A model generated the notes under the pieces. The model saw only the letters and a program-made list of their open reading frames with translations. It was not told the origin of the DNA and ran no database searches. This document shows, one piece after another, positions 18,905 to 22,170 of a stretch of DNA of 64,000 nucleotides. This DNA is from Porphyrobacter sp. AAP82 (GTDB taxonomy: Bacteria > Pseudomonadota > Alphaproteobacteria > Sphingomonadales > Sphingomonadaceae): the NCBI RefSeq assembly GCF_000331285.1, contig NZ_ANFX01000024.1:1-64000 (forward strand), in the 5' to 3' direction. A program made the translations under genes and the position numbers. How positions within the stretch are numbered: position 1 is the stretch's first letter; each line of letters starts with the position of its first letter.

Positions 18905-19099
18905 ATGGCAAACTCGCGGCAAGAGCGTCTGACCCCCGGCGGTTTCGAGCGGTCTCCCCTTAAGCGGGGCGCGGGGCGCTGGCCGTGGCTGGCGGGCTTT
19001 GCCGTGTCCGGCCTGCTGGCGCTGGCGTGGTTTGACGGGGGCGAGAAGGCGCTGCGGCCGATCGCACAGGATGTGGCGCTACCGGAGCAGGGGCAATGA
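18905..19099 (+). CDS. Small single-pass membrane protein, unknown
   Basis: A 64-residue protein with a basic N terminus and one hydrophobic stretch (about 27-42) ending AWFDGGE, then a short polar tail. No known motif. It diverges from aroK and overlaps the next gene by 4 nt (ATGA at 19096), which supports it as real and coupled to that secreted protein. It may be a membrane partner of the 639-residue product. Confidence 0.62.
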   Translation: MANSRQERLTPGGFERSPLKRGAGRWPWLAGFAVSGLLALAWFDGGEKALRPIAQDVALPEQGQ

Positions 19100-21015
19100 C
19101 CGCACGCAGGCACAGGTTCGGCATGGGCGTGCTCGCCACCGGCGTCGCCGGCGCGCTGGGCGCTGCGGGGCTCGCAGGCCTGGCGATGGCGCAGGGCAAG
19201 CCCGAATCGCTGCTGCCGCCCGGGTTCGACGATCCCGCGCCCGCACCGAGTCCCCGCCAGAGCTCGCAGCCCCGTCCCGGCCAGAACCAGCCGCCCGCGC
19301 AAGGGCAGCAGCCACCCGCCCAGCCGGGCGCCGCGGCGGTGCCGGGCGCGGCGATCGATCCGGCGAGCCTGCCCCCGCTGCCCGCGATCAGCCGCGAGGA
19401 TCTGGCGCGCCTGCCGAGCCTCGAGCAACTCGAGAACATGTCGACCGAGGAGCTCGACCAGCTGCTCGGCCTGAAGCCCAGGAGCGACATGCCCGCCGGC
19501 GCACAGCGCGCGCTGACCCGCGTCGGGGTGCTGGCGGTGGACGAAGGCGGGCTGCCGCCGGTGGCGCTCGCCAACCAGTCGGACAAGCTGGTGCGCGCGG
19601 TGCTGGCTGGCACGCAGGGCCCGCTGGTGTCGCGCTGGGGGCATATTCTCCTGCGCCGTGCGCTGGCGAGCCGGCTGGCCGCGCCGCTCGGCATGGACCC
19701 GGCCGAGTTTGCGGCGCTGCGGGTCGGCGTGCTCAACCGCCTGGGCGAATTCGCGCTCGCGCGGGCGGTGGTGCAGGATATCGATACCGCCAACTGGTCG
19801 CCCGCGCTCACCCAGGAGGCGCTCGGTGCCTATCTGGGGAGCGGCGACATCACCGGGGCCTGCCCTGCGGTGCGGCTCCAGGGCTCGCAGCGGCAGGATG
19901 GCGAGTGGGTCATGTGGCAGGCGATCTGCAACGCCTATGCGGGCGAGAGCGCGCTGGCCGCGACCCAGCTTGACCGGGCACTGTTCCGCGGCGCGGCGCC
20001 GCGCGTCGATGTGTTGCTGGCGCGGCGCTTTGCGGGCGCGGCGGGGCGCGGCAACCGCGGGGTGAATATCGAGTGGCAGGGGGTCGATGACCTCAACCCG
20101 TGGCGCTTCGGCCTAGCCAACGCGGTGGGCGAGCCGCTGCCGGGCGGGCTGCTCGACAATGCCTTGAAGGCGCGCGGCGGGGCCTATTACGCCCGCAGCG
20201 GCGCGCTGCTGCCGATGCTGCCCGCCGCCCAGCGCGCCGCCTTTGCCGGACGCGCCGCGCGCGAGGGGATCATGTCGGCCGATGCGATGGTCGATCTCTA
20301 TGCCGAGGTCTATGCCGATCCTGCTGCCAGCGGCGATCCCGACACCCATGCCGCCGCCCTGCGCGAAGCCTATCTCGCCACCGACCCCGCCGACCGGATC
20401 GCCGCGATGCAGCGCCTGTGGGCGGACGGCGCGAAGCTGGGCGGGGGAGATGGCTACGGTGCGCGCGTGCTGACCGCCTATGCCGCCGCGCGCATCCCCG
20501 CCGCTGCCGAGAACGCGGGCGCGGCGGGCGACCTCATCGCCGCAATGCTCGCCGCCGGGCTCGATCGCAACGCGGGTCGCTGGCGGACGGTGGTCGAGGA
20601 AGGCTCGATGGGCTGGGCGCTGATCGCCCTCACCGCGACCGACACCGCCGCCATCGGCCAGGGTGGGGTCGAGAAGTTCATGGGCGATGACGCGAGCGAT
20701 GAGCAGCGAAAGTCCGCCTTCCTCGTCGCCGGGCTTGCCGGGCTCGGCAAGCTGACCGAGGGCGATGCTGGCGCGCTGGCGAGCGATCTGGGCGTCGATC
20801 TGGCGCGCAAGACCCGCTGGACCGCCGTCATTTCCCGCGCCGCTGAGGTCGGCAATCCGGCGCTGGTGACGCTGCTCGCGGGGCTGGGGATGCAGGGGAC
20901 GAGCTGGTCGCAGATGACCCCGCTGCACCTCTACCACATCACCGCCGCGCTGACCCGCGTGGGGCTGGTGGCCGAGGCCCGGATGATCGCCGCCGAGGCC
21001 GTCGCGCGGGGCTAG
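19096..21015 (+). CDS. Large secreted helical protein, unknown
   Basis: A 639-residue protein with a signal sequence (about 1-33, ending AMAQG), a proline/glutamine-rich linker (about 42-80) and a long Ala-rich helical body without recognised motifs. Three Cys at most are visible. It looks periplasmic. It is coupled to a 64-residue membrane protein, and its TAG stop falls on the first bases of the 268-bp inverted-repeat element, so its last codon and stop abut the insertion. I do not recognise the family; it could be an envelope scaffold or a repeat protein. Confidence 0.7.
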   Translation: MTARRHRFGMGVLATGVAGALGAAGLAGLAMAQGKPESLLPPGFDDPAPAPSPRQSSQPRPGQNQPPAQGQQPPAQPGAAAVPGAAIDPASLPPLPAISREDLARLPSLEQLENMSTEELDQLLGLKPRSDMPAGAQRALTRVGVLAVDEGGLPPVALANQSDKLVRAVLAGTQGPLVSRWGHILLRRALASRLAAPLGMDPAEFAALRVGVLNRLGEFALARAVVQDIDTANWSPALTQEALGAYLGSGDITGACPAVRLQGSQRQDGEWVMWQAICNAYAGESALAATQLDRALFRGAAPRVDVLLARRFAGAAGRGNRGVNIEWQGVDDLNPWRFGLANAVGEPLPGGLLDNALKARGGAYYARSGALLPMLPAAQRAAFAGRAAREGIMSADAMVDLYAEVYADPAASGDPDTHAAALREAYLATDPADRIAAMQRLWADGAKLGGGDGYGARVLTAYAAARIPAAAENAGAAGDLIAAMLAAGLDRNAGRWRTVVEEGSMGWALIALTATDTAAIGQGGVEKFMGDDASDEQRKSAFLVAGLAGLGKLTEGDAGALASDLGVDLARKTRWTAVISRAAEVGNPALVTLLAGLGMQGTSWSQMTPLHLYHITAALTRVGLVAEARMIAAEAVARG

Positions 21016-21281
21016 AGCACTTCCCCACGATCCCGGATCACCCTGACGGAGCCGAATTTTGCCCGGCGCGCGAAGAGAGGAGGGAGCCATGCAGAAGCAT
21101 AGTGACCGACGATCGGCGTGGCGCTGGGCAAAAATCGGCCCGCCTCTTTCGGGTTGCACCACGAAGCCCGCGGGCTGCGTCACGGCACTTGCAGGGGCAA
21201 CCAGCCCCTGCTGCGCGCCGTTCCTACCGTGCGGGCTTCCTGGCGCAAGCAGGATGAACCGGGATCGTGGGGAAGTGCTCT
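21014..21281. mobile_element. MITE-like element with 23-bp perfect terminal inverted repeats
   Basis: The left end AGAGCACTTCCCCACG... (21014-21036) and the right end (21259-21281) are exact reverse complements over 23 bp and continue to about 32 bp with two mismatches. The interior has further inverted segments, such as CCGAATTTTGCCC near 21052 facing GGGCAAAAATCGG near 21126, but no convincing gene. The left end overlaps the stop codon of the gene before it, and the right end provides GGGGAAG as the ribosome binding site of the xerD-type gene. No target-site duplication is evident. Non-autonomous MITE or large structured repeat. Confidence 0.7.
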
Positions 21282-21282
21282 G

Positions 21283-22170
21283 ATGTCCGCCAGCACCGAG
21301 GCGTTCCTCGCCATGCTGGCGGCCGAGCGCGGCGCGGCGCTCAACACGCTCGCCGCCTATCGCCGCGATCTCGAACAGGCCGAGGAGGCGATCGGCGATC
21401 TGGCTGCGGCCGATCGTGACGCCGTTGCCAGCCTTGCGGGCGAATGGGCGAGGCTCGCCCCTGCCAGCGCGGCGCGCAAGGCCTCGGCGCTACGGCAATT
21501 TTTCGGCTTTGCCATCGACGAGGGCTGGCGGGCCGACGATCCCTCGGGCGCGCTGCCTGCACCGCGTTTGAGGCGCCCGCTTCCCAAGGTCATGGGCCAC
21601 GACCAGATCGCCGCCCTGTTCGCCCGCGCCGAGGAGGAGGCCGCGGGCGACGATCCCAAGGCGGTGCGGCTGCTCGCGCTTGTCGAGCTGCTCTACGGAT
21701 CGGGCCTGCGCGCGACCGAACTGGTCAGCCTGCCGGTCATCGCCGTGCCGCGCGATGCGCCGTTGCTGACGGTGACGGGCAAGGGCGGGACAAGCCGGAT
21801 GGTGCCGGTGGGCGCGCGCGCGCTGGAAGCGGTGAGCCGCTGGCTTGCCCTGCGCCCGGCATCGCCGCCTTCACGCTACCTGTTCCCCTCGGGCAAGACC
21901 GGGCACCTCTCGCGGGTCCGCCTGTTCCAGTTGCTCAAGGCGCTGGCGGGCAGGGCGGGGCTCGATCCTGCCGGCATCAGCCCGCATGTGCTGCGCCATG
22001 CCTTTGCCACGCACCTTCTGGAAGGCGGCGCGGACCTGCGCGTCCTGCAAAAGCTGCTCGGCCATGCGGACATTTCCACCACCCAGATCTACACGCATGT
22101 CGATGCCGCGCGCCTCGTTGCCCTCGTCAATTCCCGTCATCCGCTTGCAACCCGCACAACATCCGACTAG
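21283..22170 (+). CDS. xerD: XerD-type tyrosine recombinase
   Basis: A 295-residue site-specific recombinase with an N-terminal SAM-like core-binding domain (about 1-90) and a C-terminal catalytic domain. All catalytic residues are present: R143 (GSGLRATEL), K167 (GKGGTSR), H235 and R238 (HVLRHAFATHLL), H261 (LGHADISTTQIYTH) and nucleophile Y270. Length and composition fit the housekeeping XerC/XerD pair that resolves chromosome dimers at dif. The ATG at 21283 lies 1 nt beyond the 268-bp repeat, so its translation signal is inside that element. XerC cannot be excluded. Confidence 0.87.
   Translation: MSASTEAFLAMLAAERGAALNTLAAYRRDLEQAEEAIGDLAAADRDAVASLAGEWARLAPASAARKASALRQFFGFAIDEGWRADDPSGALPAPRLRRPLPKVMGHDQIAALFARAEEEAAGDDPKAVRLLALVELLYGSGLRATELVSLPVIAVPRDAPLLTVTGKGGTSRMVPVGARALEAVSRWLALRPASPPSRYLFPSGKTGHLSRVRLFQLLKALAGRAGLDPAGISPHVLRHAFATHLLEGGADLRVLQKLLGHADISTTQIYTHVDAARLVALVNSRHPLATRTTSD

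Follow-up and report, generated by a model that had tools for sequence, protein, structure and literature searches.

The closest described element to the one considered here is the repeat unit of pneumococcus, RUP, which has TA as its target and for which mobilisation by IS630-Spn1 has been proposed (PMC2229807, PMC3049150). The two are alike in being non-autonomous, in their TA target, in ends similar to those of IS630 and in a tight fold with paired ends. RUP, however, is a 107-bp, AT-rich, streptococcal element, whereas the present one is about 268 bp long, GC-rich and found in many alphaproteobacterial genera; unlike RUP, it combines a conserved multi-branched core with arms that change freely. 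At 266 bp and a GC fraction of 0.66 (66%), the copy studied here falls outside RUP in both size and composition. The Correia elements (NEMIS) of Neisseria resemble it in their terminal TA, their long paired terminal repeats and their folded transcripts, which in Neisseria are cut by RNase III, but they have another sequence and a length of 107 or 155 bp, and strand-opposed hairpins are absent from the descriptions compared.

The CcrM-associated intergenic repeats of Caulobacter, CIR, consist of two hairpin arms and a linker, with TA ends (PMC2229807). They share with the present element an alphaproteobacterial host, an intergenic location, two hairpins and a terminal TA, but they are only ~110 bp long, have no terminal inverted repeat and are defined by an exposed GANTC, a sequence that is absent from our copy and present in only 19 of 122 copies of the family. 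REP/BIME sequences likewise form an inverted pair of strand-specific hairpins. The present element differs from them in its long inverted ends and its TA duplication, and a search for a RAYT transposase (Y1_Tnp, PF01797) in 16 genomes, some carrying the element and some not, found none, while control genomes did give matches. Finally, IS630 elements of the same genus and family have ends that, like the arms described below, start with GAGC next to TA; these elements are ~1050 bp long with a two-ORF transposase and, unlike the present element, have ends that are imperfect past about 11 bases. A search of the open-access literature found no published description of the family itself.

The element at the xerD locus

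The window, by which we mean the whole stretch of 64,000 nucleotides that was analysed, contains a copy of the element immediately ahead of a gene for a XerD-like recombinase. The features of the locus are as follows.

19096–21015, + strand: upstream gene, 639 aa, without a Pfam or NCBIfam match; its TAG stop (21013–21015) is completed by the element
21013–21014, no strand: left TA target dinucleotide; TA–TA flanks are common among copies, and the empty sites at two other loci have a single TA
21015–21280, + strand: whole element (MITE), GAGC...GCTC, 266 bp; unit length common to copies, empty sites in relatives
21015–21046, + strand: P1, left arm or terminal inverted repeat; complementarity, covariation and an IS630-like end
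21047–21142, + strand: P2, hairpin with a run of tandem G–A mismatches; covariation, G–T excess on the + strand, + strand more stable
21143–21153, no strand: P3, small hairpin of the CCCC..GGGG type; covariation and pair counts
21154–21248, − strand: P4, long hairpin with an inner GCAGGGGC..GCCCCTGC hairpin; covariation, A–C excess on the + strand, − strand more stable
21249–21280, − strand: P1, right arm or terminal inverted repeat; complementarity and covariation; holds GGGGAAG (21269–21275)
21281–21282, no strand: TG as the right flank, where most copies have TA; gives TGATG with the xerD start
21283–22170, + strand: XerD-like tyrosine recombinase gene; PF00589, PF02899, and NF001399 above cut-off

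The inverted-repeat ends from which the original prediction started are real: nucleotides 21014–21045 and 21250–21281 are 94% complementary over 32 nt, and the outermost 23 nt are exact. The unit proper, whose boundaries were set from the aligned copies, is the 266 bp from 21015 to 21280. The predicted RNA fold of nucleotides 21010–21285 has an energy of −179.7 kcal/mol, whereas 200 dinucleotide shuffles of it give −115.2 (sd 5.1), a difference that corresponds to z = −12.6. Rfam 15, searched at the gathering threshold and at E values up to 1, holds no credible family for it. The window copy contains a AGGAGGGAGCCATG start-like site followed by an ORF, but elsewhere the frame is broken by loop indels of one or two bases, and the dispersed copies, 266–270 bp long, have no reading frame in common. 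We conclude that this is a non-coding 266-bp mobile element placed exactly between two genes. A folded RNA and a MITE had been offered as alternatives; in fact both descriptions apply, the interior of this mobile element showing strong covariation.

Pfam and NCBIfam support the assignment of a XerC/D-type recombinase, a shikimate kinase and AccA around the element. The recombinase scores 273 bits with the XerD model TIGR02225, for which the cut-off is 330, and 233 with XerC; on these scores XerD would be the better, if not a certain, name. The element had been thought to reshape the translation signals of both its neighbours, and here only half of the proposal holds. The 639-aa ORF does end in a TAG to which the element contributes the G, and the stop and the xerD start, which overlap in many relatives, are now 266 bp apart. 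The second signal, GGGGAAG, lies 7 nt ahead of the xerD ATG (21283), within the paired right arm. Since read-through transcription would leave it base-paired to the left arm, we do not favour its having a role as the working ribosome binding site of xerD. A simple scan of nucleotides 20900–21400 gave no promoter-like or terminator-like site.

Dispersal, target sites and likeness to IS630

The element recurs, as anticipated, both in its own genome and in related ones. BLAST identifies four further copies, full or partial, in the window's genome, making five in all. For the genome counts we used R1, a covariance model built on the inner hairpin, which matches 35 of 114 genomes of the same genus and 63 of 299 genomes of the family, the latter distributed over 33 of the 96 sampled genera; a genome may hold as many as 17 copies. 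The length of the unit is 266–270 bp in 102 of 122 copies. The plan of ~270 bp is met again, with unrelated arms, in several other alphaproteobacterial families, across which the core is recognisable and the arms are not. The family is old and spread across the alphaproteobacteria; distant blastn searches of phage and plasmid collections gave no match to the element. One genome, G404, contains near-identical copies (94–98% in most pairs) in which the repeat stops exactly at the element boundary, and we conclude from this that the unit has moved recently there; some of these copies lie at draft contig breaks, and mixtures of arms in this genome are not to be over-read.

Relatives lacking the insert in the aroK–xerD interval are plentiful. 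No insert is present at 28 of 29 related xerD loci, that of Porphyrobacter sp. IPPAS B-1204 (L086) among them; at these empty loci the stop codon of the upstream gene either runs into the xerD start, as TAATG or TGATG, or precedes it by a few bases. Target duplication is clear at two other loci (L073 and L067), where the empty site has one TA and the filled site has a TA on either side, and imperfect at xerD itself, where the flanks are TA and TG; here either one flank has been altered or the target was TG. In the set of 122 copies, TA flanks both ends of 52; taken singly, the left end has it in 70 copies and the right end in 72.

The element's initial G makes a TAG stop of a TA target. Of 139 TA-flanked ends with a full flank, 75 have an open stretch of 95 codons or more in the frame that places TAG as its stop; the two remaining frames give 33 and 25, so that ends at stop codons are about twice as frequent as the other frames explain. 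Many insertions therefore lie at gene stops, and the completed stop codon noted for the xerD copy reflects a property of the whole family. The conversion of TA targets into TAG stops is a suggested reason for the survival of the element beside genes.

A second copy at this position, L173 in genome G133, occupies the same xerD TA as the copy at 21015–21280, although the two genomes of the genus are distantly placed and those between them on the region tree lack the insert. Two independent insertions would account for this, and so would repeated loss. Simple orthology of the two copies is not established, given the many empty genomes that intervene, and neither copy is the nearest overall relative of the other.

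Sister genomes contain IS630 elements (NF033545, DDE_3) of ~1050 bp with two ORFs, whose ends read TA followed by GAGCGKTTTCC. One of these ends shares as many as 24 of 27 positions with MITE arms and, over positions 5–27 only, up to 20 of 23, compared with a shuffle maximum of 13; the other end agrees with the arms at only 17–19 of 27. A TA target and IS630-like ends are found for copies with class A arms, the window copy included, and no IS630 partner was identified for class B arms (GAGCCTGTCC) or the GGGTC class. From the dispersed copies, the empty sites and the likeness of the arms to IS630 ends, the element is, as judged from sequence, a MITE, as one half of the original prediction had it, and one of IS630 type. 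It would have been moved in trans by an IS630 transposase. None of the IS630 elements found in the sister genomes bears the exact arms of the window copy, and in genome G023 no IS630 with matching ends was found. The window's own genome (G000) gave no DDE_3 match and, since no IS630 transposase was found there, the MITE is probably now stranded in it.

Some further observations concern the relation of arms to transposons. The complete genome G140 has at least six near-identical IS630 elements (L280, L291, L298, L300, L301 and L303) and only two R1 matches. The arms of L417, which read TA followed by CCAAAGGAACCC, resemble another class of IS630 end (L293, TA followed by CCAAGGCGCATTG), and this suggests that the core may have switched between IS630 groups. 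At L064 (G013), a ~55-bp inverted repeat, GAGGACTTTTCGACCAATC...GATTGGTCGGAAAGTGCTC, lying between TA dinucleotides, abuts the right side of a full copy; it is a solo-arm derivative of class A.

Mirrored arms and strand-specific hairpins

In an alignment of 30 copies, at least one double change that keeps the pairing is seen in 61 of the 94 pairs of the predicted structure, which was itself derived from these 30 of the 111 sequences that entered the pair counts. The tandem G–A mismatches of P2 are nearly invariant: of 111 copies, 101, 97 and 90 have GAGA at the respective key columns. The outer arms behave differently from the core. Across 122 copies, their outer 22 pairs comprise 2614 Watson–Crick pairs (97.4%), 22 G–T, 24 A–C and 24 others, despite strong variation in base identity at these positions, and from position 23 inward pairing falls to ~60–90%. 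The arms were located by maximal pairing over 22 positions, a procedure that favours high pairing values; in the 30-copy alignment, with arms located similarly over 24 positions, the change in pairing again comes near position 22–24.

Pairs of copies occupying the same site allow the mirrored changes to be followed directly. All nine outer-arm differences are mirrored in the opposite arm: five of five in L198/L039, three of three in L173/L001 and the single difference in L244/L361, a pair that has three differences in its core. The pair L042/L238, whose registers are one base apart, was left out of this comparison. Because G–T is as rare as A–C in the outer arms, RNA folding is unlikely to be the cause of their pairing, and the evidence points to a cause at the level of DNA. 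Nor does the transposase alone explain 22 perfect pairs, as IS630 ends are imperfect past ~11 bases. Template switching, described for RNA stems as a process that creates and keeps perfect stems (PMC8794818), is the best candidate, acting here between the arms.

The core was subjected to a strand test. A transition in a G–C or A–T pair produces G–T or A–C without bias unless one of the strands must fold. Counted as events, P2 has 59 G–T and 17 A–C (binomial p 1.4e-6), and P4 has the reverse, 18 G–T and 54 A–C (binomial p 2.6e-5), A–C on the + strand being G–T on the − strand; the outer arms, with 17 G–T and 21 A–C (binomial p 0.63), have no preference. A caveat is that the events were counted on a tree of the copies, among which recombination may occur. 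Counted as cells, the G–T:A–C ratios are 41:10 for P2 and 9:43 for P4 in the genus alone, and 23:1 and 9:50 in other genera alone. As the set of pairs was taken from the + strand fold, the result for P4 is conservative. Folding energies have the same direction: RNAalifold gives −34.1 on the + strand and −8.6 on the − strand for P2, and −40.4 and −61.6, respectively, for P4. Single-copy energies agree in 61 of 70, 48 of 49 and 14 of 16 copies for P2 and in 67 of 70, 36 of 49 and 12 of 16 for P4, and the direction is unchanged in other alphaproteobacterial families. We infer that P2 has been selected as a folded top strand and P4 as a folded bottom strand, in the form of RNA or of single-stranded DNA. 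Each hairpin comes after its own terminal repeat, 5′ to 3′, so that transcription from either side first meets a hairpin in its selected form.

Origin and maintenance of the element

The explanation that we hold to be probable is that this is an IS630-type, TA-duplicating MITE whose mirrored arms have a DNA-level cause and whose P2 and P4 hairpins are selected on opposite strands. A non-autonomous transposon of this type inserts into TA and duplicates it; in many cases the target TA belongs to a stop codon, which the first G of the element preserves as TAG. The outer arms would be rewritten on both sides together by template switching, perhaps in combination with a need for both ends in transposition. 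The hairpins would function in single-stranded, folded form, most probably within read-through RNA, and whatever the orientation of the element in a transcription unit, the leading hairpin would be in its selected form. The benefit may, as a guess, be less harm to host transcripts, through processing, stability or shielding, with the consequence that copies persist beside genes. A broader version, to which we would give rather less than even weight, has the family as an ancient class-wide chassis, in which the opposite-strand hairpins constitute an orientation-proof RNA device and the repeats are rewritten in mirror image for different IS630 transposases.

It is unlikely, if worth serious consideration, that the element is an ordinary functionless IS630-type MITE in which the pairing of arms and hairpins alike stems from template switching during replication, with no selection on RNA. 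Mirrored changes in the outer arms without G–T intermediates fit template switching well (PMC8794818). On its own, however, this process gives no strand preference, whereas the biases of P2 and P4 are opposite and replicated; the near-invariance of the G–A mismatches, the strand-specific folding energies and a core that is recognisable across families when the arms are not all argue against it.

Less likely again is selection of the hairpins as single-stranded DNA, for instance as nuclease or transposase substrates, with the two halves serving as inverted recognition structures in the manner of REP/BIME. Single-stranded DNA also favours G–T over A–C, and two strand-specific hairpins in inverted arrangement, each with a G-GA-G / C-GA-C motif on its own strand, are what this would lead one to find; against it stand the lack of a Y1/RAYT transposase in the 16 genomes and the fact that IS630 transposases work on double-stranded DNA. 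That the element is not mobile but an RNA regulating the xerD operon in cis, as a leader or attenuator, is suggested by the very stable fold immediately ahead of xerD and is extremely improbable, being refuted as a general explanation by the empty xerD loci and the copies beside unrelated genes, even if a local effect on xerD is possible.

The element offers a natural setting in which to examine what keeps long inverted repeats perfect, since same-site copies with mirrored changes let template switching and selection be separated. The comparison of G–T with A–C is a way to find the selected strand of a palindromic element and could be extended to other MITEs. As to the relation between the two hairpins themselves, a test of P2–P4 homology gives scores above 0 for the minus strand of P4 in 7 of 111 copies, compared with none for the plus strand and one for shuffles, a result that is only suggestive of common ancestry. 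One of the copies in the window's genome, L005 (G000:C28:18752-18859), has kept P1 and P2 and lost P4; full copies occupy the same site in G034 and G135.
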